A model generated the notes under the pieces. The model was not told the origin of the DNA. It saw only the letters and a list, made by a program, of their open reading frames with translations, and did not search any database. Shown piece by piece: positions 26,209 through 45,081 of a DNA stretch of 64,000 bases. Each line of letters begins with the position of its first letter. The stretch's first letter is position 1. Origin of the DNA: Paenibacillus lycopersici (GTDB lineage Bacteria; Bacillota; Bacilli; Paenibacillales; Paenibacillaceae); contig NZ_CP048209.1 of assembly GCF_010119935.1 (NCBI RefSeq), positions 4,343,001 through 4,407,000 on the forward strand. The letters are read 5' to 3'. Made by a program: the position numbers and the translations under genes.

Positions 26209-27552
26209 TTAGAAGTTCGCCGATTGACGGTCCGCCTCGGCGGCATGGACGGAACGGCGGCCGATGGAATGGTATTGAATGCCCTGCTCCTGCATGGCGG
26301 AGAGCGGGAAGCAGTTGCGGCCGTCGATGATCAGCGGATGCCGCATCCGCTTCTTCAGGAGCGCAAGGTCCATCTGCCGCACATCCTGCCATTCCGTCAA
26401 CACGACGCATACGTCCGCGCCTGTCACGGCCTGCTCCAGACTTTCGCAGTAATGCACGCCTTCCGGCAGCTCCCGCTTCGCCGTCTCCGTCGCGATCGGA
26501 TCGAACGCCGTAACGATCGCCCCCTGCTTCAGCAGTTCCGGAATGATCGTCAGCGCCGGCGCATAGCGCATATCGTCCGTGTCCGGCTTGAAGGCGAGGC
26601 CGAGCACCGCGATCTGTTTGCCCGCAAGGCTGCCCAGCGTGCTCCGCAGCTTGTCCAGGATGATCAGGCGCTGCCGCTGGTTCGTGCGGATGACGGACTT
26701 AAGCAGCTCGAAATCGTAACCGGCCTTGTCCGAAATATGCGCGAGCGCGTACGTATCCTTCGGGAAGCAAGAACCGCCGTAGCCGATGCCCGCCTGCAAA
26801 AACTTGCTGCCGATGCGGCTGTCCAGCCCCATCCCTTCCGCGACGTCGGTCACGTTGGCGCCGACCCGCTCGCAGATGTTGGCGATCGCGTTAATGAAGG
26901 AAATTTTCGTCGCCAGGAACGTATTGGCCGCGTACTTGATCATTTCCGCGCTTTCCAGGTCGGTCTTGAAAATCCGCGTGCGGAACGGCGCGTGCAGCTC
27001 GGCGATCGTCTCGCGCGCCGCTTCGCTGTCGGAGCCGATGACGGCGCGGTCCATGTTCATGCAGTCGTTGATCGCGGAGCCTTCGCGGAGAAACTCGGGA
27101 TTGGACACGACGTCGAACTGCGTCCACGGATTGCGTTTGTTCGCCTGCACGACCTCGCGGACAAGCTCGCCGGTGCCTACGGGAACGGTGCTCTTGTTGA
27201 CGATGATTTTGTAGCCGTTCAGATGCTCGCCGATCTTCTTGGCCGCCGACATGACGTAACGCATATCGGCTTCGCCGGTCTCGGACATCGGCGTGCCGAC
27301 GGCGATGTAGATGATGTCCGACGCTTCGATCGCTTCGCCGACCTCCGTCGTGAAGAGCAGATTGCCGCGCTCGGCGTTCTTGGCCACGAGCGCATCAAGT
27401 CCGGGCTCGTAGATAGGAATGCCGCCTTTCTTGAGCATGTCGATTTTGCGCGCGTCGACGTCGCAGCAGATGACGCGATTGCCGATTTCGGAGAAACACG
27501 CCCCCGATACCAAGCCGACGTAGCCCGTTCCGATCACCGTGATTTTCTTCAT
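26209..27552 (-). CDS. ugd: UDP-glucose 6-dehydrogenase
   Basis: Oxidises UDP-glucose to UDP-glucuronate with two NAD+. The 447-aa protein has the Rossmann motif ITVIGTGYVGLVSGACF, YEPGLDALV, AVGTPMSETGEADMRYV, the catalytic-loop GYGGSCFPKDTYAL with the essential Cys, and LGLAFKPDTDDMRYAPA. Its ATG directly follows the galU stop codon (TAGATG), so the two steps glucose-1-P to UDP-glucose to UDP-glucuronate are made together. The product feeds the polysaccharide and the 4-epimerase upstream. Confidence 0.96.
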   Translation of the reverse strand: MKKITVIGTGYVGLVSGACFSEIGNRVICCDVDARKIDMLKKGGIPIYEPGLDALVAKNAERGNLLFTTEVGEAIEASDIIYIAVGTPMSETGEADMRYVMSAAKKIGEHLNGYKIIVNKSTVPVGTGELVREVVQANKRNPWTQFDVVSNPEFLREGSAINDCMNMDRAVIGSDSEAARETIAELHAPFRTRIFKTDLESAEMIKYAANTFLATKISFINAIANICERVGANVTDVAEGMGLDSRIGSKFLQAGIGYGGSCFPKDTYALAHISDKAGYDFELLKSVIRTNQRQRLIILDKLRSTLGSLAGKQIAVLGLAFKPDTDDMRYAPALTIIPELLKQGAIVTAFDPIATETAKRELPEGVHYCESLEQAVTGADVCVVLTEWQDVRQMDLALLKKRMRHPLIIDGRNCFPLSAMQEQGIQYHSIGRRSVHAAEADRQSANF

Positions 27553-28455
27553 CTATTTCGCCGCCTTTGTCAGGAGTGAGAATTGTTGTTCGTACACCTG
27601 CTGAATATACGCGAGCATATCCGCCTGCAAGTCTTCGCGCTGCAAAGCAAAGTCAAGCGTTGCTCTAATGAAGCCGAATTTGTCGCCGACGTCGTAGCGC
27701 ACCCCTTCGAACTGGTACGCGAGCACGTTCTTCAGATCGTTCAGCTTCTTGATCGCGTCCGTCAGCTGAATTTCGCCGCCGGCGCCGGGCGCCTGGTGCT
27801 CCAGGATGTCGAAAATATCCGGCGTCAGCACGTAACGGCCCATGATGGCATAGTTGGACGGGGCGGCTTTGCGCGACGGCTTCTCGACGAGCGTGTCCAG
27901 GAAGAATACCGACGGCTCGATGGAAGAACCGCGCGGCGCGATGATGCCGTACTTTGATACATCCTCGTCGCTGACGCGCTGCACGCCGACGACCGAGGAG
28001 GAATAGCGTTCGAATACGCGGATCAGCTGGCTGAGGCAAGGCTGCTCCGACTGCACGATATCGTCGCCGAGCAGCACCGCGAACGGCTCGTTGCCGACGA
28101 AGCTGCGGGCGCACCAGATGGCATGACCGAGACCTTTCGGCTCCTTCTGGCGGATGTAGTGAATGTTCGCGAGATCGGAGATGGCGCGGATCTGCTCCAG
28201 CTCCTTGCTCTTGCCTTTGGACTGCAGCGTCTCTTCAAGCTCGAACGACTTGTCGAAATGATCCTCGATCGCCCGTTTGCCCCGGCCGCTGATGACCAGA
28301 ATGTCTTCGATGCCGGATGCGATCGCTTCTTCGATGATGTATTGGATCGTCGGTTTGTCGACGATCGGCAGCATTTCCTTCGGCTGCGCTTTCGTGGCTG
28401 GCAGGAACCGGGTTCCGAGACCCGCGGCAGGGATAATCGCTTTACGCACTTTCAT
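27553..28455 (-). CDS. galU: UTP--glucose-1-phosphate uridylyltransferase
   Basis: Makes UDP-glucose; 300 aa. The N-terminal nucleotidyltransferase signature is [20 protein letters not shown] with [16 protein letters not shown]; later come [22 protein letters not shown] and [23 protein letters not shown] 28455 has GAGGAGG at 7 nt and overlaps the end of the aminotransferase gene by 14 bp. Confidence 0.95.
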
Positions 28456-29614
28456 GAATAAGCCTCCTCGCAAGCAAATGTTGGGCAATCAGATCGATGA
28501 CGCGCTCCTGCTCCGGCACGGACATATTGGAGCCGGACGGCAGGCAGACGCCGTGGGCAAACAGCTGGTCGGATACGCTGAATTGCGGCGTATCGGTGTA
28601 GTAATCGTACGCGCGCAGCAGAGGCTGCAGATGCATCGGCTTCCAGACCGGACGCGCTTCGATGTTCTCGCTGGCGAGAAGGGCGACCAGCTCCGCCGGC
28701 GTTATGCCGATGACGCGCGGATTGATCGTTATCGCCGTCAGCCAGCGCGTGGACATGCCGTACGCCGCTTCCGGCATGAACGCGACGCCGTCGATGCGCG
28801 ACAACGCCTGCTCGTAGCGTTCGAAGACGGCGCGGCGAGCGGCGACGCGCTCTTCAAGCACCTTCAGCTGGCCGCGGCCGATGCCCGCGAGCACATTGCT
28901 CAGCCGATAGTTGAAGCCAAGCTCGCTATGCTCGTAATGCAGCGCCGCATCGCGGGCCTGCGTCGACCAGAAGCGCGCTTTCTCCAGCGCGTCCAGGTCG
29001 TTCGAGACGAGCATGCCGCCGCCGGAAGTCGTAATGATTTTGTTGCCGTTGAACGAATAGACGCCGAACGCGCCGAGCGTACCGCTTGCTCTGCCCTTGT
29101 ACGTGGCCCCGAGCGACTCGGCGGCATCCTCGATGACCGGCACGCCATAGGCGCCGCAAAGCTCGAGAATCGGATCAAGGTCGGCGCTTTGCCCGTACAA
29201 ATTGACGACGATGACGGCTTTCGGCAGCCGGCCGTCCTGCTTCGCCGAGACGAGCGCGCGTTCGAGCGCCTGGGGCGACATGTTCCACGTCTCGGGCTCG
29301 GAGTCGATGAATACCGGCTCCCCGCCTTCGTACAGCACCGGATTGACGCTGGCGATGAACGTGAGCGTCGAGACGAAGACGCGGTCGCCGCGTTCCAGCC
29401 CGACCAATCGCAGCGCCTGATGGATCGCCGACGTGCCGGAGCTGAGCGCCAGCGCTCCCTGCGTGCCGACGAACGCGGCCAATTCGCGTTCGAACCCGTC
29501 GACATGCGGTCCGACCGGCGCGATCCAGTTCGTGGCGAACGCTTCTTGTACATACTCATGCTCGCTGCCGCTCATATGCGGCGAAGATAGATAAATCCGG
29601 CCTTGATGTGCCAT
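28442..29614 (-). CDS. DegT/DnrJ/EryC1 aminotransferase, PglE/EpsN-like
   Basis: PLP-dependent sugar aminotransferase of 390 aa. It contains the segment [20 protein letters not shown], the PLP-ring Asp in [13 protein letters not shown] and the Schiff-base Lys192 in [15 protein letters not shown]. The short start [20 protein letters not shown] is typical of PglE/EpsN enzymes, which aminate the 4-keto sugar made by PglF/EpsC. With the PglD-like gene just upstream and a PglF-like gene in the same locus it fits UDP-bacillosamine synthesis. ATG 29614 has AAGGAG at 10-12 nt; 47 further upstream codons look like shadow. Confidence 0.92.
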
Positions 29615-29655: not shown

Positions 29656-30639
29656 CTATTCGAGCACCCGTCTCGCCTTGGCGGGTACGCCGACCGCGAC
29701 GACGCGCGGGGGAATATCGCATACCGCCGCCGCGCCGGCGCCGAGCACCGACCATTCGCCGATCGCGACCGCCGGAATGACGGCGCAGCCGATGCCGAGG
29801 TGCGCGCCTTCGCCTACCTCGACGCCTCCCGCGACGGCGGCGTTCGGCGACAGATGGGCGTACGCGCCGATCGTCGCGTCATGCTCGGCCACCGCGCCGG
29901 AATTGACGATGGCATGCGCGCCGATGCGCGCGCCCGCGTTCACGACCGCCCCCGGCATGACGACGGCGCCCGGGGCAACCGCCGCCCGGGGCGACACATG
30001 CGCGCCGGGATGCACGATCCGCGCGTAGCATGCCTCCGGCAGTGCGAGCCGTTCCACAATGGCCCGCCGAACGGGATTGCCGCCGATCGCGACGACGAGC
30101 CGGCTGCCCGGATACATCCGAAGCACCCGGGGAACGATGCCGACCGGGCACTGCCATACGCCGTCCTCCATCCGTTTCATCTCGTCGAATTTGTCGTCCG
30201 CGACGGCGATAAGTTCGAACCGCCCCATCGCTTCGGCGATATCCCGGACGACCCGGCCGTGGCCGCCGCAGCCGACGATGACGAGCGGGACGAGCGGCGG
30301 CGAGTCCTTCGGCGACGGCGGCATCTCCGCGGCGGCCGCTTCACGCGGCGCCGGTGCCTGCTCTGCCTGCGCCGACGCCTGTTCTGCCTGCGCCGACGCC
30401 TGCTCTGCCTGCGCCGACGCCTGCTCTGCCTGCGCCGACGCCTGCTCTGCCTGCGCCGACGCCTGTTCTGCCTGCGCCGACGCCTGTTCTGTCTGCACCG
30501 GTACTTGATCTGTCTGTGCCGGGGCCTGCTCTGTTAGCGCCGACGCCTGCTCTGTCGGCACCGATGTATGCTCTGTCCGCGCCGGCTTCCCGAGCGCCTC
30601 CCTGCCAGACATGCGGACCCTTGCCGCCGGCCGGTTCAC
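29656..30639 (-). CDS. PglD/EpsM-like sugar O/N-acetyltransferase with a repeat-rich N-terminal extension
   Basis: About 327 aa. The C-terminal 210 residues are a PglD/NeuD-type protein: LVIVGCGGHGRVVRDIAEAM (UDP-sugar-binding Rossmann part), then a left-handed beta-helix with the catalytic His in NSGAVAEHDATIG and HLSPNAAVAGGVEVGEGAHL. It would acetylate UDP-4-amino-4,6-dideoxy-GlcNAc. Ahead of it sits an extension of about 110 residues built of 7-residue units (TEQASAQ/AEQASAQ), absent from typical PglD. GTG 30639 overlaps the stop of the upstream gene (GTGA) with GGGAGG nearby; ATG 30612 is an alternative. Confidence 0.85.
   Translation of the reverse strand: MNRPAARVRMSGREALGKPARTEHTSVPTEQASALTEQAPAQTDQVPVQTEQASAQAEQASAQAEQASAQAEQASAQAEQASAQAEQASAQAEQAPAPREAAAAEMPPSPKDSPPLVPLVIVGCGGHGRVVRDIAEAMGRFELIAVADDKFDEMKRMEDGVWQCPVGIVPRVLRMYPGSRLVVAIGGNPVRRAIVERLALPEACYARIVHPGAHVSPRAAVAPGAVVMPGAVVNAGARIGAHAIVNSGAVAEHDATIGAYAHLSPNAAVAGGVEVGEGAHLGIGCAVIPAVAIGEWSVLGAGAAAVCDIPPRVVAVGVPAKARRVLE
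30355..30585. repeat. 21-bp in-frame minisatellite inside the acetyltransferase gene
   Basis: About eleven 21-bp units in register (30355, 30376, 30397, 30418, 30439, 30460, 30481 and on), nearly identical in the middle and drifting toward 30585. Each encodes seven residues of the type QASAQAE, so gain or loss of a unit keeps the reading frame. Confidence 0.9.
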
Positions 30640-32444
30640 AGCGCCTCCCGGGAGCTGCGCGTTCCGGCGAATTTGGTCGTCGTGACATGGCCTTCCTGCT
30701 GGATCCCTTCGCTGCGCAGCACCTTGGACACCGTCTTCAGCGCGATCCGGAGATCGAGCAGCAGCGAATAATGCTCGACGTACCAGACATCCATGCGGAA
30801 CTTGTCCTCCCACGAAAGCGCATTGCGGCCGTTCACCTGCGCGAGCCCGGTTATGCCGGGACGAACGTAATGCCTGCGCGCCTGGTCCTGCGTGTAGAGC
30901 GGCAAATATTCCATCAGCAGCGGACGCGGCCCGATCAGGCTCATCTCGCCGGACAGCACGTTCAGCAGCTGCGGCAGCTCGTCCAGGCTGAGCTTGCGTA
31001 TCAGCTTGCCGAACGCCGTCAGGCGAACCTCGTCCGGCAGCGGGTTGCCGTGCCGGTCCTTCGCATCGGTCATCGTCCGGAATTTGCGGACGTAGAACGG
31101 ATTGCCGAACCGGCCCGGCCGTTCCTGCCGGAACAGCACCGGCGAGCCCAGCTTCGCCCGCACGGCCAGCGCCGTCAGGGCGATAACCGGCGAGAGCAGC
31201 GCGAGCAGCGTCAGGCTGGCGGCGATGTCGACGCCCCGTTTGACGAAGCGCTGCAGGCGGCTGCGCCAGGACGAGGTCAGCCGCTTGCGAAGCGCGATCT
31301 CCTCGTACATGACAAGCAGCCGGGAGACGACCTTCGCTTCCGTGAATTGCCGTTCGACGCGCCTTCGCCCTGCTTCGCCGAGCCGCGCGCGGCGCGCGGG
31401 CTCGTCCATCATGCGCGCCAGCGCATCGGCGAGCTTTTCCCCGTCGCGGTACGGCACCAGCTCGCCCGTCGCTTCCGGGCTTCCGCCGCGGTCGGACGCT
31501 ACCAGCTCCCGCGTGCCGAGCACGTCGGTCGCCACGATCGGCTTGCCGAGCGCCATCGCTTCCATGAGCGAACGGGGGATGCCCTCCTTCTCGCTCGTCA
31601 GCGTCACGGCATCCGCCATCAGCTGCCACGGCAGCAGATCGGATTGATGGCCGATGAAGGCCACGTCTCCGTCCAGGCCTTCCGTCTCGATCCGCTTCCG
31701 GATATCCGCTTCCAGCGGGCCCTGGCCGGCAAGCACCGTCACCCAGCCGAGCGCGCCGCGCCGCTTCAGCGATGCGAGCGCGTCGAGCAGCAGATCATGA
31801 TCCTTGACCTTCTCGAACCTCGCCGCCATCAGCAGCATCGGCGCATCCGTCCGGATGCCGTACGCCTGCTTCAAGTCTTCCGGCTTCAGCCGTTCAAGCG
31901 CGCCGGCCGATAACCGGTCGAGCTTGTCCAGGTCGACGCCGTTGCCTTCGCAGTAGACCGGCTGCCAAGGCGCCAGCTTGCGCAGCGCCCAGGCGTCCTC
32001 CTCGTTCTGCGACGCAAGCGCGTCGCAGAACCGGGCGGCGAAACGTTCCAGCAGCCGATACGCGGTATAGGCCGCCTTGGACTGCCCCTCGTAGAAAGGA
32101 AGCCCATGGCTCGTATGCAGCACGATCGGCACGCCTGCGAGCCTCGCCGCCACGCGTCCGATCAGCCCCGCTTTGGCGGTATGCGTATGAACGATGTCGT
32201 AGCGCTCGCTGCGCAGCAGCTTCCGCAGCTTCCAGATGGACGCGAGATCCTGCAGCGGCCGGATCGTCCGGCTCATCGGCACGTCCCGCCATTGAAACGG
32301 GAACGAACCCCTGACGGACGCGTCCAGATGGTCCCCGGCCGAGATGAACGTCACCTCGCAGCCCGATTGCTGCAGCAGCGCCAGCTTATCGCCGAGGATT
32401 TTGTAGCTGATCCCCGACGTACAAATATGGGCGACTTTCCTCAT
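30636..32444 (-). CDS. Fusion of a GT4 glycosyltransferase and a PglC/EpsL-type initiating phosphoglycosyltransferase
   Basis: A 602-aa two-domain enzyme. Residues 1-385 are a GT4 glycosyltransferase (HICTSGISYKILGDKLALLQ, HTHTAKAGLIGR, LLMAARFEKVKDH and the EX7E pair E287/E295 in EKEGIPRSLMEA). Residues 395-602 are a bacterial sugar transferase: a re-entrant hydrophobic helix (VDIAASLTLLALLSPVIALT), VRKFRTMTD, the catalytic Asp488-Glu489 in LSLDELPQLLNV, SLIGPRPLL and the PglC/EpsL-type tail EGIQQEGHVTTTKF. One chain could load the first sugar phosphate onto undecaprenyl phosphate and add the second. GGGGAGAG precedes ATG 32444; the start continues directly into the conserved fold. Confidence 0.92.
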   Translation of the reverse strand: MRKVAHICTSGISYKILGDKLALLQQSGCEVTFISAGDHLDASVRGSFPFQWRDVPMSRTIRPLQDLASIWKLRKLLRSERYDIVHTHTAKAGLIGRVAARLAGVPIVLHTSHGLPFYEGQSKAAYTAYRLLERFAARFCDALASQNEEDAWALRKLAPWQPVYCEGNGVDLDKLDRLSAGALERLKPEDLKQAYGIRTDAPMLLMAARFEKVKDHDLLLDALASLKRRGALGWVTVLAGQGPLEADIRKRIETEGLDGDVAFIGHQSDLLPWQLMADAVTLTSEKEGIPRSLMEAMALGKPIVATDVLGTRELVASDRGGSPEATGELVPYRDGEKLADALARMMDEPARRARLGEAGRRRVERQFTEAKVVSRLLVMYEEIALRKRLTSSWRSRLQRFVKRGVDIAASLTLLALLSPVIALTALAVRAKLGSPVLFRQERPGRFGNPFYVRKFRTMTDAKDRHGNPLPDEVRLTAFGKLIRKLSLDELPQLLNVLSGEMSLIGPRPLLMEYLPLYTQDQARRHYVRPGITGLAQVNGRNALSWEDKFRMDVWYVEHYSLLLDLRIALKTVSKVLRSEGIQQEGHVTTTKFAGTRSSREAL

Positions 32445-32504: not shown

Positions 32505-33542
32505 TCATCTGGCATTCAGCCCGGCCGCCATCCTCCGCGAGGAATAATACGCCCTGTACCAGTCGACGAACCGCCCGATGCCGTCCTCGATCGCCGTTAC
32601 CGGCTTGAAGCCGATTTCGCGCTGCAAGGTGTCGATGTCCGCGAACGTCGCTTCCACGTCGCCGGGCTGCATCGGCATGAACCGCAGCTTCGCCTCGATG
32701 CCCAGCTTGAGCTCGATCGTGCGGATAAAATGCATCAGCGCCACCGGTTTGTTGTTGCCGATGTTGTACACTCTGTAAGGCGCATAGCTCGAACCGGGAT
32801 CGGGACGCTCGCGATCCCAGGCGGGATCCGGCTGCGGCGGACGACCGTGGAGCCGGACGACGCCTTCCACGATATCGTCGATGTACGTAAAATCGCGCTG
32901 CATCCGCCCCTCGTTGTACACGTTGATCGGTACGCCGTTCTCGATATCCCGGGTGAAGCTGAAATACGCCATGTCCGGCCGGCCCCAAGGCCCGTAAACC
33001 GTGAAGAACCGCAGGCCGGTCGTCGGCAGGCCGTACAAGTGGCTGTACGTATGCGCCATCAGCTCGTTCGCCTTCTTCGTCGCTGCGTACAGGCTGACGG
33101 GGTGGTCGACGCTGTCGTGCACGCTGAACGGCATCAAGGCGTTGGCGCCGTAGACCGAGCTCGACGAGGCGTACAGCAGATGCCCGACTTCGAAGCGGCG
33201 GCATGCTTCGAGCACGTTGCCGAAGCCCGTCAGATTCGAATCCAGGTACGCGAACGGATTCGTAATGCTGTACCGGACCCCCGCCTGCGCCGCAAGATGA
33301 ATGACCGACGTGATGCCATGCTTCTCGAACAGGCGGCTCAGCGTCATGAAATCGGCGATATCGCCTTCCTCCCCGGCGAAGCGGGGATGGCCGCACAGCA
33401 TGCCGAAGCGGTCGCGCTTCAGCTGCACGTCGTAATAGTCGTTGAAATTGTCGAGTCCGACGACATCAAAGCCGTCTCTCATCAAGCGCTCGCTCACGTG
33501 ATAGCCGACGAATCCGGCCGCGCCCGTTACTAGAATGGTCAT
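32505..33542 (-). CDS. NAD-dependent UDP-glucuronate 4-epimerase-like enzyme
   Basis: A 345-aa extended short-chain dehydrogenase. It has ILVTGAAGFVGYHVSERLM (NAD+ fold), LDNFNDYYDVQLKRDR (typical of UDP-GlcA epimerases), HLAAQAGVRYS, the Ser-rich YASSSSVYG, the catalytic Tyr-x3-Lys in SLYAATKKANE and RFFTVYGPWGRPDMA. It should interconvert UDP-glucuronate (made by Ugd in this locus) and UDP-galacturonate. The stop/start junction with the GT gene upstream is an ATGA overlap. Confidence 0.9.
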   Translation of the reverse strand: MTILVTGAAGFVGYHVSERLMRDGFDVVGLDNFNDYYDVQLKRDRFGMLCGHPRFAGEEGDIADFMTLSRLFEKHGITSVIHLAAQAGVRYSITNPFAYLDSNLTGFGNVLEACRRFEVGHLLYASSSSVYGANALMPFSVHDSVDHPVSLYAATKKANELMAHTYSHLYGLPTTGLRFFTVYGPWGRPDMAYFSFTRDIENGVPINVYNEGRMQRDFTYIDDIVEGVVRLHGRPPQPDPAWDRERPDPGSSYAPYRVYNIGNNKPVALMHFIRTIELKLGIEAKLRFMPMQPGDVEATFADIDTLQREIGFKPVTAIEDGIGRFVDWYRAYYSSRRMAAGLNAR

Positions 33543-34834
33543 AGCGCTTCCGCTCCCTTCGCATTGTCGTTCTTGACGTACACTTGCCCGCCGTTATTCG
33601 CCGTCGCGCCGGCTTCCGCGCCGTTCGCGAACGTCGCCGCATAGTCGCGGAACGATTCCCAGAAGGCGCGCCGCTGCTGGTCGAGCTTCGCTTTCGTATA
33701 CTTCTGCGCCGTATGGAAATTCAGCTCCGCCTGCTCCTTCATCCAGGCCGTATTGCCGATCGCCAGCCCCAAATGCTCGGCGAACTGCTTATAGCCGCCC
33801 GGCTTATGAAGCCACTCCGCGCCGATCAGCTCGGGAATGCCCCCTGCCGTCGAGCCGAGAACCGGGCAAGCGCGGCTCATCGCCTCGATCGTCGCGCGCG
33901 GCAGCCCCTCCTGGAAGCTTGGCTGCACGTACAGATCCAGCTCGTCCAGCCATTCGAACACCGCGCTTCCGCTCGTCAGCACGCCGCAGAACTTCACGAG
34001 GCTCCCGATGCCGAGCTTCTCCGCGAGTGACCGCCAGCGGTCTGCCGATCCGTCGCCGAGAATATGGAACTCGAACGAGGGCAGCTCCTCCCACTGCACG
34101 CGGGCAAACGCGCGCAGCGCCGTATCGATGCCCTTGGTCTTGCCGTTCAGCGAACCGATCATGCCGATGCGGAACGGACGATCCGGATTCCAGGTCCCCT
34201 TGCCGGCGGCGATCCGCTTCAAGCGGCGGTCGAGCACGTCCGGCGAAACCGCGGGAATTTCCACGTTGGAGCAGGAGCCCTCCACGCCTTGCGCGGACAA
34301 CGGATACCGTTTCTGCAGAAACTTCTCCGTCACGTAAATGCCGTACGGCGCCCGTTTGACGAGCGAACGCGTCTTCCATAAGGAGAACGGCGCGTACAGC
34401 TTGCCCTGCGCATTGCCGTAATTCCACAATCCGTCCCACGCGCAGGCGACCATCTCCACGGCAAAAGGCTTGCCGAGCGAACGCGCGACCCGAATCGCTT
34501 CCGCCCCGAGCTCGCTCGGCATCCGCGCGATGACGGCGTCCGCCTTGGCGATCGCCTCCCGCAGGCTATGCTCGACGATTCCGCGTTTCGTCAGCTTGTT
34601 GACGGGGTTGCTGAGCGACGGCAGCACGAGGAAATCGACGTTCGGGCCGCTCGACAGTGTCTTGCCCTTCATATCCGCATCCGCGGACGTGCGCTGTCCG
34701 CGGCAGGCGACCGTCATGGAATCGAAGACGCCCAAATACCGCTCCCAGACGGCGTAAGGCAATTTGCCGCCGGAATAGAACTTCCCGGTTTCATTGAAAT
34801 AAAACGTATGGTCATGCGCCCAAACAACATGCAT
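33539..34834 (-). CDS. GT4 family glycosyltransferase
   Basis: A 431-aa GT-B fold enzyme. The C-terminal half is clear: PFRIGMIGSLNGKTKGIDTAL, FEFHILGDGSADRW, VKFCGVLTSGSAVFEWL and the nucleotide-sugar-binding QPSFQEGLPRATIEAMSRAC (EX7E). The N-terminal acceptor half begins MHVVWAHDHTFYFNETGKFY. Donor and acceptor are not predictable. It overlaps the epimerase start by 4 bp, so translation is coupled. Confidence 0.88.
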   Translation of the reverse strand: MHVVWAHDHTFYFNETGKFYSGGKLPYAVWERYLGVFDSMTVACRGQRTSADADMKGKTLSSGPNVDFLVLPSLSNPVNKLTKRGIVEHSLREAIAKADAVIARMPSELGAEAIRVARSLGKPFAVEMVACAWDGLWNYGNAQGKLYAPFSLWKTRSLVKRAPYGIYVTEKFLQKRYPLSAQGVEGSCSNVEIPAVSPDVLDRRLKRIAAGKGTWNPDRPFRIGMIGSLNGKTKGIDTALRAFARVQWEELPSFEFHILGDGSADRWRSLAEKLGIGSLVKFCGVLTSGSAVFEWLDELDLYVQPSFQEGLPRATIEAMSRACPVLGSTAGGIPELIGAEWLHKPGGYKQFAEHLGLAIGNTAWMKEQAELNFHTAQKYTKAKLDQQRRAFWESFRDYAATFANGAEAGATANNGGQVYVKNDNAKGAEAL

Positions 34835-35595: not shown

Positions 35596-37065
35596 CTATA
35601 CTTTTCCGCTCCGATAAATCGGGTTAATAGCCTGACCGGGCTGCATTTTGCCGGGCGGCAGGCTCCCATTCGGGTTCGCGCCGCGATTCCCGGGCTGCCT
35701 GCCGCATCGGCGGAACCATCTCGCCGCCCATACGAACGTATACGCCTGGTAGACGTACAGCAGCGGAAGAACGGGCAGCTTCTTGCGGACCATGTTGTCG
35801 CCGACGGTGCCCACGCCGTAATCCAGATCCCGCTCGGTAACGGTGACGTACCCGACCAGCACGAGCGTGCAGGCGTAGGTGAACAGCACGACGAAGGCGA
35901 CGGCGTAGAACGGCCTCGTTTCCTTGAAACGGAGAAAGTTCAGCGCGCTGACGACCAGCCCCGCTGTCATGATCAGCGCTTCGAGCGTCCGCAGCAGCAG
36001 CTCGCTGTCCCAGTTGCCCGGATTGAGCGGATTGGGACTCAGGAACAGATAGACGACGAGCAGGCTCGCGTTGATCAATCCGAGCGGGCCGATCTGCATG
36101 ACGAGCAGCCCCATCGCCGCAACCATGACCGCAAGGGCGGTGCGAAACTTTTGCCGGTACAAGAAGTAGAAGCCGAAGGTGTAGATGACCGCGTAATCGC
36201 GAAGCCCCGTCGCATACAGCAGCAGGAGGACGAACAGCACGTACCTCCGCCGCATGAGCAGGCTTGCGCCGTAGGCGCCGAGCAGCGCGCACAGCACGTC
36301 TTTGGCGAACATCGACGACATCAGCATGAAGGACGGACTCGCCAGCAGGCCGAAAATCACATAGGCATGGAACCGGCTGCGCTTGCCCTCCGGCAGCTCG
36401 TACGCGAACCGGCTCTCGTTCATGCGGTAGACGCCGTTGACGAGCAGCAGCAGGAGCAGGCCGTTCAGCATGATAATCGGCAGCGAATCCTCGATGTCCA
36501 GCCATTTGAAGAACGGCATGTACACCAGACCGAACATCGGGTAAGCCGATATGTTCATCCACTGCGTCACGATGTGGTTCCAGGCGTACGGCATGAAATC
36601 CGACAAGCGCTGGAACGTGCTGACCTGCTCGAAATAATGGATCGAATCCGGGCCGCCGACGGGATTCATCGTCGCCGCATACACCAGCTTGCCGAGCAGC
36701 ATGACGCCGAGGCCGCCGAAGAGCGCGAACGGCGTATTCGGCCAGCGGAGCAGGAAGAAGAAGAACGGGATCAGCAGCGCGAAGAACGCCACCATGCCAA
36801 GCTTCTCGTCCAGGCCGAAGAACAGCTTCCCGAGCAGCAGCAGCATGACGAGATACATCGCGGCCAGCGCGGGATGATGCAGCGCGATCCTGGCCGCGGC
36901 CGGTTCGAGCGGGAGCGGGCTGCGCCGGCCAGGCAGGTAAGGCATGCCCGCCGCTTCGCCCGCTTGCTTCGCTCCGCGCCGATCGCTGCCCGCATGCATT
37001 TGCCCGCGTCCGTCCGCTTGCCGCCAGCTCCGCTTCCCGGCCGCCGCGAAATCGTTACCCGCCAT
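35596..37065 (-). CDS. Polytopic membrane protein, candidate Wzy-type polymerase
   Basis: A 489-aa protein with a hydrophilic, Gly/Arg-rich N-terminus of about 60 residues and many predicted helices (MYLVMLLLLGKLFFGLDEKL, LIPFFFFLLRWPN, FALFGGLGVMLLGKLVYA and more). It has a long loop with GGPDSIHYFEQVSTFQRLSD and a motif-like YATGLRDYAVIYTF. Polymerases are poorly conserved; membrane topology and position beside a Wzx flippase are the arguments. ATG 37065 overlaps the GT gene by 11 bp; the start could lie further in, since the first 60 residues resemble nothing. Confidence 0.7.
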   Translation of the reverse strand: MAGNDFAAAGKRSWRQADGRGQMHAGSDRRGAKQAGEAAGMPYLPGRRSPLPLEPAAARIALHHPALAAMYLVMLLLLGKLFFGLDEKLGMVAFFALLIPFFFFLLRWPNTPFALFGGLGVMLLGKLVYAATMNPVGGPDSIHYFEQVSTFQRLSDFMPYAWNHIVTQWMNISAYPMFGLVYMPFFKWLDIEDSLPIIMLNGLLLLLLVNGVYRMNESRFAYELPEGKRSRFHAYVIFGLLASPSFMLMSSMFAKDVLCALLGAYGASLLMRRRYVLFVLLLLYATGLRDYAVIYTFGFYFLYRQKFRTALAVMVAAMGLLVMQIGPLGLINASLLVVYLFLSPNPLNPGNWDSELLLRTLEALIMTAGLVVSALNFLRFKETRPFYAVAFVVLFTYACTLVLVGYVTVTERDLDYGVGTVGDNMVRKKLPVLPLLYVYQAYTFVWAARWFRRCGRQPGNRGANPNGSLPPGKMQPGQAINPIYRSGKV

Positions 37066-38191
37066 AGAGCTGCTCCAATCGCCGTACGCTGGCGGTCATG
37101 TTGTAGCCGAGCCTGTCGAGCGCGGCCAGCCGCGACCGCCATTCCGGCGTCGTCGAGGCGGCCAGCCGGCGGAAGCCGTCCACCCACTGCGCCGGATCGT
37201 CCGTCAGCTTCAGCTTCGCGAACAGACCGAGCCTCAGATCCGCTTCTTCCGGGACGGCGTCCGACACGAGGCAGGGAATTCCGGCGGCCTGCGCCTCGAT
37301 CAGCACGATGCCGAGCCCTTCGTATAAGGAAGGAAGGACGAAGCCGTCTACGGCGCCGAGCAGCTCGGGCACGTCGCTGCGCAGCCCGAGGAACGCCACC
37401 TGCTCCGAGAGCCCGAGCTCCTTCACCTTGCGTTCGATCTCCTCCCGCTTCGGCCCGTCTCCGACGAGCAGCAGCCCCGCGCCCGGCTCGCGCTTGGCGA
37501 ATTCGGCGAAGCGGTCGATCAGGAACGCATGGTTCTTCTGCTCCGCGAACCGCCCGATATGCGCGAACAACGGCGCGTCGCCCTGCGGCAGGCCGAGCTT
37601 CGCCCGCAGCTGCCGCCGGTCCGGCGGCAGCGAAGCGTACGGCTCGACCGCTATCGCGTTCGGAAACACCATCACGCGGCCGTCCCGCCAGCAATTCGCG
37701 CCGTAGAGCGATTCGCAGGCGGCTTTGGAGCAGCCCAGCATATACGTCGCGTTCCGCCGGATCAAGCTGCGCATGTACGCGTTGTAGGCGATGCGCTTCA
37801 ACGACTTCGCGGCGGCGCGGCCGCCGGACTGGACATTGTGGCTGTGGCTGATGCGCACCGGAATGCCAAGCTCGCGCGCGATCGCCAGCACGTAGCCGCT
37901 GAAGGCGAAAATGTGGCTGTGCACCGCCGCGTACGGCCCGTTCGCTTGAATATTGGCCGCAAGCGTCCGCTTGAAGGCGGACAGGCCGTCCTTCGGATGG
38001 GGCTGCCGGAGCAGCCGGCCCCCGAGCGCGATAATTTCGTCGTCGTAGAACGCCTTCTCGTCCGTCTGTACGGCAAAATGAAATTCGAACCGTTCCCGGT
38101 CGCATTGCCGGTACACGTTCATAAGCAGCGTCTCGATGCCGCCGGGATGCATTTTGCCGACGACGTGCAGCACTTTGATTTTGTGGGTCAT
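37055..38191 (-). CDS. GT4 family glycosyltransferase
   Basis: A 378-aa EpsF-like glycosyltransferase. Family features are VLHVVGKMHPGGIETLLMNV, FHFAVQTDEKAFYDDEI, the acceptor-side HSHIFAFSGYVLAIARELG and SHSHNVQSGG, and the donor side LFAHIGRFAEQKNHAFLIDR and LPSLYEGLGIVLIEAQAAG (EX7E). The frame opens another 88 codons upstream, but ATG 38191 has GGGAGA at 8 nt and begins at the conserved MTHKIKVLHVV. It overlaps the pyruvyl transferase end by 4 bp. Confidence 0.92.
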   Translation of the reverse strand: MTHKIKVLHVVGKMHPGGIETLLMNVYRQCDRERFEFHFAVQTDEKAFYDDEIIALGGRLLRQPHPKDGLSAFKRTLAANIQANGPYAAVHSHIFAFSGYVLAIARELGIPVRISHSHNVQSGGRAAAKSLKRIAYNAYMRSLIRRNATYMLGCSKAACESLYGANCWRDGRVMVFPNAIAVEPYASLPPDRRQLRAKLGLPQGDAPLFAHIGRFAEQKNHAFLIDRFAEFAKREPGAGLLLVGDGPKREEIERKVKELGLSEQVAFLGLRSDVPELLGAVDGFVLPSLYEGLGIVLIEAQAAGIPCLVSDAVPEEADLRLGLFAKLKLTDDPAQWVDGFRRLAASTTPEWRSRLAALDRLGYNMTASVRRLEQLYGG

Positions 38192-39516
38192 GGCAGCATT
38201 CTCCCGATCTGTTCGTAGATTTCCTGTTTCTTGCCGAGCATCTTCCGGACGAACGTCGCGCTCGGCTCGGCATCCAGCCGCATCGCCGCGACCGCCTGCG
38301 CGGCGGGATCGCGGAAGTCGACCAGCTTGTCGGCAAGCCCCAGGTCGGTGAATATATCGCTCAGCTTCTTGTCCCATACGATCGCGTACGTCGGCTTCAG
38401 CATGGCCGCCGACGGCAAGCAGGCATGCAGCCGCTGCGCGATGACGGCGTCGCACTCGTCAAGCTGGCGGTAGAGCGCGTCCACCGAGGACGGATACGGA
38501 TAGAAGCTCACATGCGGCAGCCCTTCGCAGCGCGGCTTGACGAACGTCTCGACGAAGCCGTTGTCCGTCGCCGCGCCGTTCGTGAACACCCGCACCTCGA
38601 AGCCTTGCGCGAGCAGCGCCTTCGCCGCGTCGCGCCACCAATCGGCGCAGGTCTCCCGTTCCCAGCGATGCGCGGAGGCGCGCTTCAGCTCGTTCGGGTC
38701 CATAATGCCGAGGCCGACGATGCGGCGTTCGGCGATTGCGGCCGCCGTCGCGGCACGCGGGCCGGCAGCGACGCGCCGGTTAGCCGTTGCGACGCTCCCG
38801 GCGGACGCGGCCGCCTCCGCGCCGTGCATGCCCGCCGCCGGCACGCCGCCGAATTCGCGGTCCGCGGCCGCAGCGGCTTCGCGAACGCCAAGCCGCGCGG
38901 CCTCGAACGTCTCCCGCGTGAACAGCGCGGGATCGCTGAGCGCGAACGTCTTGGACGCAAGCGACGGGTCCTTCTCGAGCAGAAACCTCCGCGATTCCTC
39001 GTCCCTCAGCGTGATCGTCGTCGCGTACCTGCAGGCACGGCGGAACCAGGCGCGGGCGGGCGCGCTCCAGGGGCCGCGCGCCCCGACGAGCACGATGTGC
39101 AAGGGCTTGCCCTGCCTCCGCGCCTCGTCCGCGACGCGCTTCACCGCGAGCGGGAACGTCAGGTACGTGTCGATCAGCAGATGCCCGCCGCCGAGGAACA
39201 CCGCGTCGCACTTGGCGACGAGCGCCTTGAGCGGCCTGCCGACGGCCGCGTCCTTCCTTCGGTGGATCCAATAAGCCTTCATCATCCGCAGACCGTCCGG
39301 CGTCGCCCGCTTCTTCAAGCCGGCGTCGTTGATCCGCGGCAGGCTTGGGCGATCCATGCGAGCCGCGTTCTCCTCCTCGACTTCGCCCTGCGTAATATCG
39401 AAGTGGATTACGTCGTGCTTGCCTTGCATGTGAATGATATGGGTCAGCGTCCTGGCGATGAGGCCGTCACCCAAATTCGGCGATTTCGGTACGCCGGCGA
39501 GCAGCACGGTAGCCAT
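38188..39516 (-). CDS. Polysaccharide pyruvyl transferase family protein
   Basis: A 442-aa CsaB/WcaK-type enzyme, which adds a ketal-linked pyruvate from PEP to a sugar and so puts negative charge on the polymer. Visible signatures are the N-terminal PKSPNLGDGLIARTL, AVFLGGGHLLIDTYL, AVIAQRLHACLPSAA with the conserved Arg-His, and the C-terminal YAIVWDKKLSDIFTDLG. Residues about 213-262 are an Ala-rich low-complexity insertion between the two domains. The function is well supported by family; the acceptor sugar is unknown. Confidence 0.88.
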   Translation of the reverse strand: MATVLLAGVPKSPNLGDGLIARTLTHIIHMQGKHDVIHFDITQGEVEEENAARMDRPSLPRINDAGLKKRATPDGLRMMKAYWIHRRKDAAVGRPLKALVAKCDAVFLGGGHLLIDTYLTFPLAVKRVADEARRQGKPLHIVLVGARGPWSAPARAWFRRACRYATTITLRDEESRRFLLEKDPSLASKTFALSDPALFTRETFEAARLGVREAAAAADREFGGVPAAGMHGAEAAASAGSVATANRRVAAGPRAATAAAIAERRIVGLGIMDPNELKRASAHRWERETCADWWRDAAKALLAQGFEVRVFTNGAATDNGFVETFVKPRCEGLPHVSFYPYPSSVDALYRQLDECDAVIAQRLHACLPSAAMLKPTYAIVWDKKLSDIFTDLGLADKLVDFRDPAAQAVAAMRLDAEPSATFVRKMLGKKQEIYEQIGRMLP

Positions 39517-39534: not shown

Positions 39535-40905
39535 TCAATTCTTCCGTTTGCCGCCGAAGGACGGCAGCCATACCGGGGTGATGATGCCGTACTTCCGCAC
39601 GACGACGACCGCCATGATGCCGTTCCAGCATATCGTCGAGCAGCAGGCGGCGAGCCCTGCCCCGGTCATGCCGATGACCGGAATGAGCGCCACGCTCATG
39701 ACGACGTTCAACGCCGTCGAGCCCGCGAGCACCCGGGTCAACAAATTATGCGACCCGGCCATCGTCGCCAGCGTGCCGTTCTGGCCGCAATAGGCGCCGA
39801 ACAGCTGGCCGACCGACATGAGCAGCAGCGCGGGGTACGCGTCCGCGAAGCCCGGTCCGAACAGCGTCAGGATCGGCTTGCCGCCGATCGCGAACGCCGC
39901 GCAGACGACGACGGCGAACGCGAAGCCCGCCCGTCCCGAAGCCGTGCACACCTGCTGCAGCTGTTCGCGGTCGCCTTTCGCGTACGTCTCCGACAGCAGC
40001 GGCGCCGCCGTCATGTTGATCGCCGTCCGGGCGAAGGCGACGAGCGTCGCCAGCCGCACCGCGGCGGAGAAATACCCGGACGCCGTCTCGCTGTCCATCG
40101 CGCCCATGAGCAGCACGTTCAGCTGCCCGAGAATCAGGTACATGCCCGCGTTCACCATGAGCGACAGCGACAGCCGCGTCCAGGAACGCGTCTCGTACTG
40201 CGCCTCGACGGCCGCGAGCCGGCTTCCGATCCGCCGCTTCAGCACGACCGCGCCGATGACGTACGAGACGAAGAGCGAAGCGGCGAAGCAGATCATCGCC
40301 GTGCCCGCGCCGGCTCCGGTGCCGAGCAGCGGCACTGCGAGCGCCAGCAGGCCGATCGTCAGGATCGGGCGGATGATTTTCTCCGGCATCTGCGCGAAGA
40401 GCACATCCTTCAATGCCTGCAGCGCGCTCTGCCGCAGCGTGGCGAGCGTCAGCAGCGGGATGGTGACCATGCCCGCCGCGTAGCAGACGATCTGCTGCTC
40501 CGTCATGCCCCCGCTGCGGATGGCGACGACCGCCAGGCCGACGGCCATGACGATCAGCGACAGCACGAAGCCGATTTGGTTGGCGCGCTGCAGCAAGCCT
40601 TTGATGAGCGGCCAATTGTCCTTGGCCTTGTACGAGGACACCAGCTTGACGAGCGTCGTATCGAAGCCCAGCTTCGCCGGAAAAATCATGAACGTCGTCA
40701 CCGTCGTCACATAGGCGAAGGTGCCGTATCCCGCCGCGCCGAGCAGGCGGGCCAGGACGATTTGCATCAGCAGCGCGAGTCCCATGCCGCTGACATTGAT
40801 CAGGAACGTCAGGCTGCCGCCTTTGGCGAGCGCCCTCCTCGCCGACGATTTCGCCGGCGCCGATGACGGTACGGCGGGCGCGTCCAGCCGTTGTGCATTT
40901 GCCAT
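39535..40905 (-). CDS. Wzx-type polysaccharide flippase
   Basis: A 456-aa member of the MATE/MOP flippase group that moves the lipid-linked repeat unit across the membrane. It shows the usual 12-14 helices, starting KGGSLTFLINVSGMGLALLM and ARLLGAAGYGTFAYV (typical of Wzx), with later SYVIGAVVLKRR, AVRLATLVAFARTAINM and FGPGFADAYPALLLMSVGQL. The ATG at 40905 is preferred to a GTG five codons upstream, which overlaps the ribosome site. It follows the PglF-like gene after 68 bp. Confidence 0.92.
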   Translation of the reverse strand: MANAQRLDAPAVPSSAPAKSSARRALAKGGSLTFLINVSGMGLALLMQIVLARLLGAAGYGTFAYVTTVTTFMIFPAKLGFDTTLVKLVSSYKAKDNWPLIKGLLQRANQIGFVLSLIVMAVGLAVVAIRSGGMTEQQIVCYAAGMVTIPLLTLATLRQSALQALKDVLFAQMPEKIIRPILTIGLLALAVPLLGTGAGAGTAMICFAASLFVSYVIGAVVLKRRIGSRLAAVEAQYETRSWTRLSLSLMVNAGMYLILGQLNVLLMGAMDSETASGYFSAAVRLATLVAFARTAINMTAAPLLSETYAKGDREQLQQVCTASGRAGFAFAVVVCAAFAIGGKPILTLFGPGFADAYPALLLMSVGQLFGAYCGQNGTLATMAGSHNLLTRVLAGSTALNVVMSVALIPVIGMTGAGLAACCSTICWNGIMAVVVVRKYGIITPVWLPSFGGKRKN

Positions 40906-40973
40906 GTTGTGTACGACCACCCTTGCGATTGTTGGCTGCGGCCAATCTCGTTCAACGTTCTATTCCGTTCTCC

Positions 40974-42806
<1,833 letters not shown>

Positions 42807-42828: not shown

Positions 42829-43533
42829 TCATTCGGCCGAAGCCTGCGTGTAGGAATAATAGCCGCTTAATTCGCTCGCAGCCGTCTGGTTCAGCGCGAC
42901 GCCCACGATCTTGGCCTGCACGAATTGGAGCGCGTCGCGCGCCTTCGCGGCATGCTGCCGCTTCCCGCTTCTCGCGTTGATGACGAGCAATACGCCGTCG
43001 CAGCGCGACGCCATGATCTGCGCATCGCTGACGGCGAGCACCGGCGGGGTGTCGATCAGCACCAGATCGAAGCTTTGCCGCAGCTCGTCCAGCAGCAGAT
43101 CCATCTTGCGCGAGGCGAGCAGCTCGGACGGATTCGGCGGAATCGAGCCCGAAGGCATGACGCTCAAGTTGCGGATATGCGTCTCCTTCACCGCCTCGCG
43201 GGCCGCCGCGTTCCCCGCGAGCACATGGGTCAAGCCGCACCGGTTGGACAGCTGGAACGTCTGGTGCGCCGTCGGCTTGCGCAAGTCCGCATCGAGCAGC
43301 AGCACCGATTTGTCGGCTTGGGCGTAGGCGACGGCCAAATTGTTGATCGTCGTCGTCTTCCCTTCCCGCGGGCTCGCCGAGGTGACCATGAGCAGCTGGA
43401 GCGAGCGGTCGACGCCGGCATATTGCAAATTCGTCCGCAGCGTCCGGTACGCTTCCGAAATCGGCGACAACGGATTCAGGTCCGTAATGATCGGCCGGCC
43501 GCTTGTCACGTTGAATGGTTTAGTTTGCTGCAC
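42829..43533 (-). CDS. CpsD/YwqD-type bacterial tyrosine kinase
   Basis: A 234-aa BY-kinase. Walker A is TSASPREGKTTTINNLAV, Walker A' is SVLLLDADLRKPTAHQ and Walker B is LVLIDTPPVLAVSDAQIMA. The N-terminal SPISEAYRTLRTNLQ and the C-terminal tyrosine cluster SGYYSYTQ are typical. It needs the Wzz-like activator encoded just upstream, and its phosphorylation state usually controls chain length and export. The two genes overlap by 14 bp. Confidence 0.94.
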   Translation of the reverse strand: MQQTKPFNVTSGRPIITDLNPLSPISEAYRTLRTNLQYAGVDRSLQLLMVTSASPREGKTTTINNLAVAYAQADKSVLLLDADLRKPTAHQTFQLSNRCGLTHVLAGNAAAREAVKETHIRNLSVMPSGSIPPNPSELLASRKMDLLLDELRQSFDLVLIDTPPVLAVSDAQIMASRCDGVLLVINARSGKRQHAAKARDALQFVQAKIVGVALNQTAASELSGYYSYTQASAE

Positions 43534-44275
43534 GCGATTGTTCCTCCCCTTTCGAAGTCGCTTTCGTCTTGCGCGTACCGCGCAGATCCACCTGCCGGAT
43601 CGACGGAATCTGCACGAGCGTCGGCAAGCCCAAGTACCGTTCCACGTCGGCTTCGGACTTGATCCGGTCGTCGAAGTAATCGAGCAGCAGCACGAGGCCG
43701 ATGCCGAACATGAACGAGAGGACGAACATGATGGCCATATTCAATTTCGGGTTCGGCTTGATCGGCGACGGCTGCTTGTTCTCGTTCGCCATATGGAGCA
43801 GGTATACGTTATCGACCTTCATGATGCTCGGGATTTGCGCCTGGAACACGACCGATATCGCGTTGACGATGCGCGCGGCCAATTTGTAATCGGTGCTGGC
43901 GTACGATAGCGTGACGACCTGCGTGCCGTTGACCGACGTGAAATTGATGCCCCGCATCAGATCGTCCGCCGTCACGCCGAATTCGGGATGCTGGGCGACG
44001 ACTTTGTCCATGATGGCCGGCGTGCGGATAATTTCCTTGTAGGTGTTGATGAGGCTGATATTCGTATTGATCGCGTTCAAATCAAGCTGAAGCATGCCCG
44101 GCTTGTCGTTCGCGGAATTGACGATGAGCTTCGTGTACGCTTGATAGACCGGCTGCAAATACATGTAGCTGACGATGCCTGCCGCGGATGTGCTGACGAT
44201 GACGATGGCGACAAGCAGCCACACCCGCTTGCGTATGATGGACAAGTAATGCCGCAAATCCAGATCGATGCTCAA
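43520..44275 (-). CDS. Wzz/CapA-type chain-length and kinase-activator protein
   Basis: A 251-aa polysaccharide co-polymerase: two membrane helices (about 18-40 and 182-203) around an extracellular helical domain with TDYKLAARIVNAISVVFQAQ, then a Pro-rich stretch (PSPIKPNPKLN) at the second helix. The cytoplasmic tail (DDRIKSEADVERYLGLPTLV) activates the partner kinase in related systems. It starts 20 bp after the phosphatase gene. Confidence 0.93.
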   Translation of the reverse strand: MSIDLDLRHYLSIIRKRVWLLVAIVIVSTSAAGIVSYMYLQPVYQAYTKLIVNSANDKPGMLQLDLNAINTNISLINTYKEIIRTPAIMDKVVAQHPEFGVTADDLMRGINFTSVNGTQVVTLSYASTDYKLAARIVNAISVVFQAQIPSIMKVDNVYLLHMANENKQPSPIKPNPKLNMAIMFVLSFMFGIGLVLLLDYFDDRIKSEADVERYLGLPTLVQIPSIRQVDLRGTRKTKATSKGEEQSRAAN

Positions 44276-44295
44276 GAGTTGAATCCCTCCGTCGT

Positions 44296-45081
44296 TTATA
44301 GTTTGAATGTTGGCAGCTTCGCGAGCAGCCGCGACATTGCGCTGCGCCGCTCGGGCAGATTGCTCCGCTCCATCGGCGCGTCATGCCATACGGCGCGGGC
44401 ATTGCGCTCGTAAGCGGCGGACAGCGCCCTTCCGAGCTTGGCCGCGACGATGTCGTGCGCGGCGAGCAATTCGTATGGTCTTGTCGTTGCGTTATGCGCG
44501 TCGGAAGCGATCGTCTGCACCAGATTGCGCCTGCACAGCTCCAGCGCGGCGCTTTTGACGGCTTTGCCGAATCGGCCGGTCAGCGAGTGCGACGTCAGCT
44601 GCGCCATCGCTCCGTAATCGGCGAGCCGTTCGAACTGGCTCGGGTCGGCGGCGATTTGCGCGTTGCGTTCCGGATGCGCGATTATCGGCGTCCAGCCCGC
44701 GATGCGCAGCTCGTGCAGCATGTCTTCGATCCGCAGCGGGATGCGCGAGGACGGAAGCTCCAGCAGCACGTACGCGGATTTGCCGAGCGGCAGCAGCCGG
44801 CCCGCTTCCAGATCCGCGACCAGATTGTCGTAGACGCGGATCTCCTGGCCCGGCTGAACGATCAGCGGAATTCTGCGTTTGCGCAGCTCGGCGTTCATGT
44901 TCTCCGCTTCCCGGCGGATGCGGCCGGCATCGGTCTCGTACGCGCCGGGACGGTAATGGGGCGTTGCGATAATTGCGGTCACGCCGTCGTAGGCGGCGCG
45001 CCTTGCCAGTTCCACAGCTTCCTCCAGGTGATCCGGGCCGTCATCGAGCCCAGGCAGCAAATGACAATGCATGTCGATCAT
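44296..45081 (-). CDS. CpsB/YwqE-type PHP-domain tyrosine-protein phosphatase
   Basis: A 261-aa metal-dependent phosphatase that dephosphorylates the BY-kinase. All PHP-site motifs are present: MIDMHCHLLPGLDDGPD, IIATPHYRPG, IVQPGQEIRVY, IIAHPERNAQI and TIASDAHN. It is the first gene of the long polysaccharide locus. Confidence 0.94.
   Translation of the reverse strand: MIDMHCHLLPGLDDGPDHLEEAVELARRAAYDGVTAIIATPHYRPGAYETDAGRIRREAENMNAELRKRRIPLIVQPGQEIRVYDNLVADLEAGRLLPLGKSAYVLLELPSSRIPLRIEDMLHELRIAGWTPIIAHPERNAQIAADPSQFERLADYGAMAQLTSHSLTGRFGKAVKSAALELCRRNLVQTIASDAHNATTRPYELLAAHDIVAAKLGRALSAAYERNARAVWHDAPMERSNLPERRSAMSRLLAKLPTFKL

Follow-up and report, generated by a model that had tools for sequence, protein, structure and literature searches.

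Glycosyl transferases are said, following O'Toole and colleagues, to be among the common fusion partners of bifunctional monotopic phosphoglycosyl transferases (monoPGTs). These bifunctional enzymes (Bi-PGTs), with a monoPGT catalytic core and functional domains fused at either end, are described as a recognised class (PMC10942596, where O'Toole et al. 2021 is cited). PglB of Neisseria gonorrhoeae is described as bifunctional with a PglC-like core, its partner being a C-terminal aminotransferase domain and not a glycosyltransferase (GT) (PMC6133551). In better-known systems, as an earlier note on the DNA studied here had stated, the phosphoglycosyl transferase (PGT) and the GT are separate proteins. 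The exopolysaccharide pathway of Bacillus subtilis starts with EpsL from UDP-N,N′-diacetylbacillosamine (UDP-diNAcBac), and EpsD, a family 4 GT (GT4), then acts on the undecaprenyl diphosphate-linked sugar (Und-PP-diNAcBac) with UDP-N-acetylglucosamine (UDP-GlcNAc) (PMC10653937). In Campylobacter PglC and PglA are two proteins; PglA is described as transferring N-acetylgalactosamine (GalNAc) in the pgl pathway (PMC10653937). Here we report on a stretch of 64,000 nucleotides of Paenibacillus lycopersici (contig NZ_CP048209.1, positions 4,343,001 to 4,407,000, called the window below), in which one gene encodes a GT4 and a PGT in a single chain. The source genome is a single contig of 6.74 Mb.

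Judged from its sequence, the 602-aa protein unites an initiating PGT and a GT4 in one fusion. The best explanation overall is that it is probably a bifunctional enzyme which initiates the glycan in a Paenibacillus-family exopolysaccharide cluster. Translation of the window gave 602 residues and a stop with zero internal stops; the ends given in the earlier note are exact, and the frame lies on the minus strand, which that note had left unstated. The sequence GGGGAG stands six bases 5′ of the start ATG. A Pfam search of the translation matched Glyco_trans_4_4 at residues 22-155 (2.8e-20), Glycos_transf_1 at 190-362 (2.2e-33) and Bac_transf at 402-576 (5.4e-60). The GT4 profile matches span residues 22-377, and the EX7E motif formed by E287 and E295 reads EGIPRSLME; two more EX7E strings occur elsewhere in the chain, at 245 and 328. 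The Bac_transf match covers profile positions 1-178 of 179, which makes it a complete monoPGT domain, with D488-E489 located within SLDELPQ. Both domain assignments of the earlier note, a GT4 with an EX7E pair and a complete PglC/EpsL-type domain with an Asp-Glu dyad, are borne out by these matches. The coordinates of all features are collected in Table 1.

Table 1. Features of the fusion gene and of the surrounding cluster (positions in the window)
Feature	Position	Strand	Basis and remarks
GT4-PGT fusion gene	30636..32444	minus	602 aa, stop included; open frame, Pfam domains, 35 named fused relatives
GT4 (GT-B fold) half, residues 1-388	31281..32444	minus	Pfam; structural alignment with PglA 8dqd
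E287 codon, first Glu of EX7E	31584..31586	minus	invariant in 36/36
E295 codon, second Glu of EX7E	31560..31562	minus	invariant in 36/36
Monotopic PGT half, residues 393-602	30639..31268	minus	Pfam Bac_transf; model secondary structure; Foldseek match to PglC 8g1n
D488-E489 catalytic dyad codons	30978..30983	minus	invariant in 36/36
UDP-glucose dehydrogenase type protein (Ugd)	26209..27552	minus	UDPG_MGDP_dh N, central and C domains
GalU-type UTP-glucose-1-phosphate uridylyltransferase	27553..28455	minus	NTP_transferase domain; start inferred
PglE-type aminotransferase	28442..29614	minus	DegT; LegC family, under its cut-off; start inferred
PglD-type acetyltransferase, repetitive N-terminal extension	29656..30612	minus	Pfam PglD_N; NeuD/PglB/VioB family above cut-off; start inferred
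Putative UDP-glucuronate 4-epimerase (UDP-galacturonate supply)	32505..33542	minus	solved-structure matches
Second GT4 (GT4b)	33539..34834	minus	Pfam
Third GT4 (GT4c)	37055..38455	minus	Pfam; start uncertain
Wzx-type flippase (Polysacc_synt)	39535..40920	minus	Pfam
PglF-type UDP-GlcNAc 4,6-dehydratase, N-terminal CoA_binding_3 part	40974..42806	minus	Polysacc_synt_2, CoA_binding_3
Polysaccharide tyrosine kinase, Wzz-type co-polymerase, CpsB/CapC-type protein	42829..45081	minus	domain matches

The protein resembles the Bi-PGTs, for which a monoPGT catalytic core with a further domain fused at one end is described (PMC10942596). It has the complete monoPGT domain, the D488-E489 dyad, the PRP motif, a predicted re-entrant helix and an N-terminal GT4 in the same chain. 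It differs in the partner, which is a GT4 and stands ahead of a PGT of the diNAcBac class. From its sequence the PGT half would work like PglC, yet, as it carries a GT4, it is not a Sm-PGT, which consists of the catalytic core alone. The view that a fusion of this kind is out of the ordinary is weakened by the recognised Bi-PGT class and by two more GT4-PGT fusions with other GT4 halves, described below.

We scanned genome contigs with the GT half. Relatives were found in 51 named loci, designated here by L numbers. The same fused frame is present in 35 of them (34 in Paenibacillus and one in Cohnella), and in the other 16 the GT is unfused; no case was seen among the 51 in which the GT relative and a diNAcBac-class PGT occupy separate frames. 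Among 22 genomes of the genus, seven carry the fusion, two an unfused GT relative and 13 nothing at E <= 1e-85. The wide genome searches scored few candidates per genome (four as a rule in one, three in another), and their results hold among the matches listed. A profile search of 398 Bacilli genomes gave 127 with a match at E <= 1e-70. Among the matches listed in this search, with at most three candidates scored per genome, only the window covers 1-593 of the 595 profile positions in a stop-free single frame, and no other genome of the genus is present. The fused family looks conserved in part of Paenibacillaceae and not widespread.

We considered whether the fusion could be a sequencing or assembly artefact that joins neighbouring genes. 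In distant lineages the GT4 and the PGT are encoded by two genes side by side, in some cases in one frame and three bases apart (L034 1333-3087, L035 1477-3261, L119 1465-3366, L120 1465-3228 and L143 1465-3408), and by their sequence these arrangements stand one step from fusion. The 35 named loci, which come from separate genome records, nevertheless share the fused frame, as do the seven genus genomes, and an artefact is so improbable that we rejected it. A stop between the domains in homologues, named in the earlier note as a sign against the fusion, was found in more distant homologues only, where the GT4 and PGT are separate genes. We also rejected a separately started PGT product, which is unlikely because residues 356 to 415 include a single in-frame ATG, GTG or TTG, that of M379, and nothing like a Shine-Dalgarno sequence stands 5′ of it.

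The 36 fused sequences compared below (the 35 named loci and the window) were chosen as fused, and since the uninterrupted frame was a selection criterion, only their motifs and substitution rates count as independent evidence. All 36 share E287, E295, R209, K214, P419, D488, E489 and the PRP uridine-binding motif (P506-R507-P508), as well as W545, F549 and Y555, which are common to PglC. The stretch across the joint, Y380-D406, is 27 residues long in 22 rows, with a range of 23-28 over the whole set. For the window paired with L005, a relative at 87%, dN/dS is 0.14 in the GT half and 0.12 in the PGT half; four other pairs gave 0.078-0.114 and 0.035-0.075, respectively, with less certainty in the two pairs where dS exceeds 1. 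Both halves are under purifying selection, and neither appears to be decaying. That one half is catalytically dead and kept as a scaffold is very improbable: against it stand the invariant catalytic motifs of both halves and a dN/dS of 0.035-0.144 in both halves over the five pairs (two of them less certain, as said). The GT half contains a loop at residue 315 whose length varies among relatives, and in the fusion of P. plantiphilus (L064 6001-7953) an Ala/Ser-rich insert of about 45 residues follows this residue.

The AlphaFold2 model, computed from an alignment of 23 fused sequences that draws on 22 of the 35 fused loci, reached a mean predicted local distance difference test score (pLDDT) of 84.7 and a predicted TM-score of 0.79. 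In the model two residues separate the C-terminal helix of the GT half (369-390) from a helix-break-helix (393-416/418-432) around the invariant P419, and the PGT half is predicted to have a re-entrant membrane helix of this type. The best solved matches of the PGT half are structures of Campylobacter concisus PglC, 8e37 (2e-69) and 8g1n (7e-69); the half aligns with 8e37 through residue 594, and WbaP alignments stop earlier. For the GT half they are BshA 2jjm (7e-17) and C. concisus PglA 8dqd (3e-16). Foldseek (best 50 of 1725 matches) matched the GT half to BshA and PglA, and the PGT half to PglC with TMt 0.86-0.90 (for 8g1n TMt 0.87 and 57% identity), and C. concisus PglC is 57-58% identical to the PGT half in structural alignment. 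In VIA-align, model residues 2-385 matched PglA 8dqd with Z 37.5 (354 residues, root-mean-square deviation 3.3), and BshA and others scored equally; the GT half, with its EX7E motif, shares the GT-B fold of PglA. No solved chain spanning both halves was present among the Foldseek best 50 of 1725 or the 50 VIA matches listed, which is no proof of absence.

The first sugar is very probably diNAcBac. A C-terminal tail with a Phe and an aromatic box are described as marks of diNAcBac PGTs, and WbaP as being without both (PMC10942596). The PGT half keeps a PglC-like C-terminal tail, with residue 592 being F in 31 and Y in five of the 36 sequences. In a quick tree of 90 PGT rows the fused halves belong to a branch (99) whose PGTs in many cases lie beside PglD/PglE, and the two other PGTs of the source genome are placed outside it. 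In Campylobacter, PglF, PglE and PglD together make UDP-diNAcBac, and relatives of all three are encoded in the window. The PglF-type protein has its best solved match in WlaL (5bju, 2.7e-94), which we take to be PglF; the PglE-type protein in 1o61 and 4ztc, presumably PglE of C. jejuni; and the PglD-type protein matches 4ea7, 4m98 and 3bss. Because the PGT half is of the diNAcBac class and these three relatives are encoded in the window, diNAcBac is strongly favoured over GlcNAc. The earlier note had named UDP-diNAcBac or UDP-GlcNAc as substrate; the former stands and the latter was rejected.

Across the 35 fused loci PglE was found in 34 and PglD in 33. The PglF gene lies 8.5 kb from the fusion in the window, and in the other fused loci this is mostly beyond the flanks covered. 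In L006 and L067 PglE comes directly after the fusion and no PglD was found between the two. The PglD-type protein of the window is extended at its N-terminus by about 100 aa that lie outside the PglD domains and contain several copies of a seven-residue repeat (EQASAQA-like).

The GT half is likely to act next after the PGT. In a comparison of the cluster's three GT4s with solved structures, PglA was listed at E <= 0.001 for the fused one alone; it was absent at this cut-off for GT4b and for GT4c, the latter tested as 37055-38332. The proposal of the earlier note that the PGT is fused with the next GT holds for the fusion itself, and its next-step part is supported by this match of one of the three GT4s and by the split locus L144 described below. 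An alternative is that the PGT half starts the glycan and that the GT half takes part at a later point of the repeat unit; the fusion would then be a membrane tether or a means of fixed stoichiometry. Two further GT4s in the cluster would allow for this, and unfused GT relatives occur with other-class PGTs, so the acceptor need not be diNAcBac. We consider it improbable given the PglA match, the order GT-PGT-PglD-PglE that recurs with separate genes (e.g. L018, L116, L124, L142) and the different GT4 that is fused to the same PGT class ahead of PglD-PglE in L045/L148.

For the second step by the GT half, UDP-galacturonic acid or UDP-glucuronic acid is the slightly favoured donor, because the GT is accompanied by genes for UDP-hexuronate in the fused loci and also in many of the unfused ones. 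In the fused loci the epimerase is directly upstream in 35/35, and GalU and Ugd are present in 34/35. The epimerase candidate of the window has its best solved match in 5u4q (1.2e-135, annotated as dTDP-glucose 4,6-dehydratase), followed by 6zl6, WbgU and MoeE5; its assignment rests on resemblance to 5u4q, 6zl6 and MoeE5, which we take to be epimerases. The name GalU for the uridylyltransferase is likewise our assumption. Neighbours of unfused loci were examined over at most 6 kb on each side, and "not found" means within that range. The counts were taken over all 16 unfused named loci, six of which had no neighbour match above thresholds: epimerase is present in eight, Ugd in seven, GalU in six, and PglD, PglE and GT4b in none above thresholds. 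Below thresholds there are an aminotransferase (PglE-like) of 34% in L106 and GT4b-like proteins in L104 (38%) and L111 (30%). In the unfused Paenibacillaceae loci the epimerase adjoins the GT in seven of nine (L094-L097, L100, L101 and L112, not L104 and L108), and PglD and PglE were not found. L003-L014, L063 and L115, which repeat the window or largely repeat named loci, were kept out of the neighbour count for the separate PGTs described below, and L003-L014 also out of the trees; the genomes G009 and G010 (both fused) and G002 (unfused) thus drop out of both.

Several observations weigh against this reading of the enzyme. The nearest solved sequence of the GT half is BshA, marginally ahead of PglA, and the C-terminal tail used for the class assignment of the PGT half (578-602) has pLDDT below 50 in the model. 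L006 and L007/L067 show no PglD beside the fusion. In half of the 16 unfused loci there is no epimerase above threshold; L145 has GalU beside the GT and an epimerase of only 41% further off, and L146 has the epimerase without GalU or Ugd. Since the unfused GT relatives pair with other-class PGTs (L094, L095, L102, L108), or with none found in the range covered, the GT half is not strictly tied to a diNAcBac acceptor. The hexuronate could be used by GT4b or GT4c. We found no activity reported for this fused family in the literature, and B. subtilis EpsD, the nearest pathway analogue, is described as using UDP-GlcNAc (PMC10653937).

In the main rival reading, the same two-step enzyme has an EpsD-like GT half that adds GlcNAc (or GalNAc), and it is GT4b or GT4c that takes the hexuronate. 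In structure the GT half closely resembles PglA and BshA, and both of these are N-acetylhexosamine transferases. EpsD, moreover, is described as acting after EpsL on Und-PP-diNAcBac with UDP-GlcNAc, and weakly with UDP-GalNAc (PMC10653937). The epimerase adjoins the GT not only in 35/35 fused loci but also in 7/9 unfused Paenibacillaceae loci, the latter without PglD/PglE found, and we regard addition of GlcNAc or GalNAc as somewhat unlikely. The hexuronate as second sugar remains the reading we prefer.

Among the unfused loci, L094 (5992-10216) and L095 have the GT relative followed by a separate PGT of another class, GalU and Ugd; the same GT lineage may there work with different starter enzymes. 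In Cohnella caldifontis (L108 5281-7176) an other-class PGT comes directly before the GT relative, in reverse order, with three bases between the frames. The cluster of the window further encodes on the minus strand a 489-aa protein (35596-37065) with no Pfam match at 1e-5, perhaps a Wzy-type polymerase, a relative of which is found in 34 of the 35 fused loci.

A natural split version of the fusion gene set, by its sequence, is L144 from another family of Bacilli, with the row GT4b, GT (43%), epimerase, GalU, Ugd, PGT (64%), PglD, PglE, in which GT and PGT are separate genes; L144 is outside the 16 unfused named loci. We also inspected 59 separate PGTs of the diNAcBac class, taken with a bit score > 195 among the loci gathered and so not a random sample. 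A GT4 lies within 250 nt upstream on the same strand in 15 of the 59 (four had less than 1000 nt upstream, and some of the 15 matches are weak, E about 1e-8), and PglD is close downstream in 36. The fusion therefore unites two genes that in some loci stand next to each other in this order.

Two further GT4-PGT chains were found on minus strands, L024 1501-3354 (618 aa) and L045 1486-3351 (622 aa, followed by PglD and PglE); the PGT tree labels both as separate although they are fused with other GT4s. As their GT halves gave no match with that of the window at the cut-offs used and their PGT halves are placed elsewhere in the PGT tree, the fusion of a GT4 with a PGT probably arose more than once in Bacillota. 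Such repeated joining fits a selective advantage and does not show channelling. In a Raymondbacteria metagenome-assembled genome (L106 8184-10646) there is one 821-aa frame with PglF as best match, perhaps a dehydratase-PGT fusion by its sequence; it seems to be the source of a 35% PGT-like row in the tree.

In a careful GT tree (50 rows, with the long-branch unfused L102 and L104 left out), eight unfused Paenibacillaceae rows nest inside the fused rows. Two changes of fusion state are needed on this tree, and 0/200 bootstrap trees need only one; a tree with the fused rows held as one clade was not rejected (AU p 0.197). In the PGT quick-search tree, a single branch (SH-aLRT 89) sets the 36 fused rows apart from the rest. 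The nesting in the GT tree may point to one gain and one loss of the fusion, with a change of the partner PGT.

In the mechanism that we propose, the PGT half would sit in one membrane leaflet by its re-entrant helix and would use its Asp-Glu dyad to load undecaprenyl phosphate with phospho-diNAcBac taken from UDP-diNAcBac. The joint, nearly constant in length, would keep the GT4 half at the membrane face, where this half would then add the second sugar to Und-PP-diNAcBac with retention. A direct hand-over of the lipid-linked sugar inside the chain is a tentative prediction. A further idea, which we hold to be rather unlikely, is that the coupled module makes Und-PP-diNAcBac-hexuronate without releasing the monosaccharide lipid and commits scarce undecaprenyl phosphate only when both UDP-sugars are present, and that in one branch of Paenibacillaceae the GT half became separate once more and took another starter PGT as its partner.

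In the titles and abstract openings that our literature search covered, we found no paper on this Paenibacillaceae fused family, and we do not claim that it is not in print. What the family adds to the already established class of bifunctional monoPGTs is a sharpened prediction. Physical coupling of the first membrane steps of glycan synthesis is hard to test with separate enzymes, and the fused family is a good test system, with both predicted activities in one chain, a joint of near-constant length and the split L144 for comparison; in L045, another GT4 has been linked to a PGT of this class in a matching gene context. If the coupled module and its re-splitting were true, starter enzymes would be exchangeable modules. 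For the exopolysaccharide itself, the prediction is a reducing-end disaccharide of diNAcBac and then a hexuronic acid, which would differ from the start of the B. subtilis exopolysaccharide.

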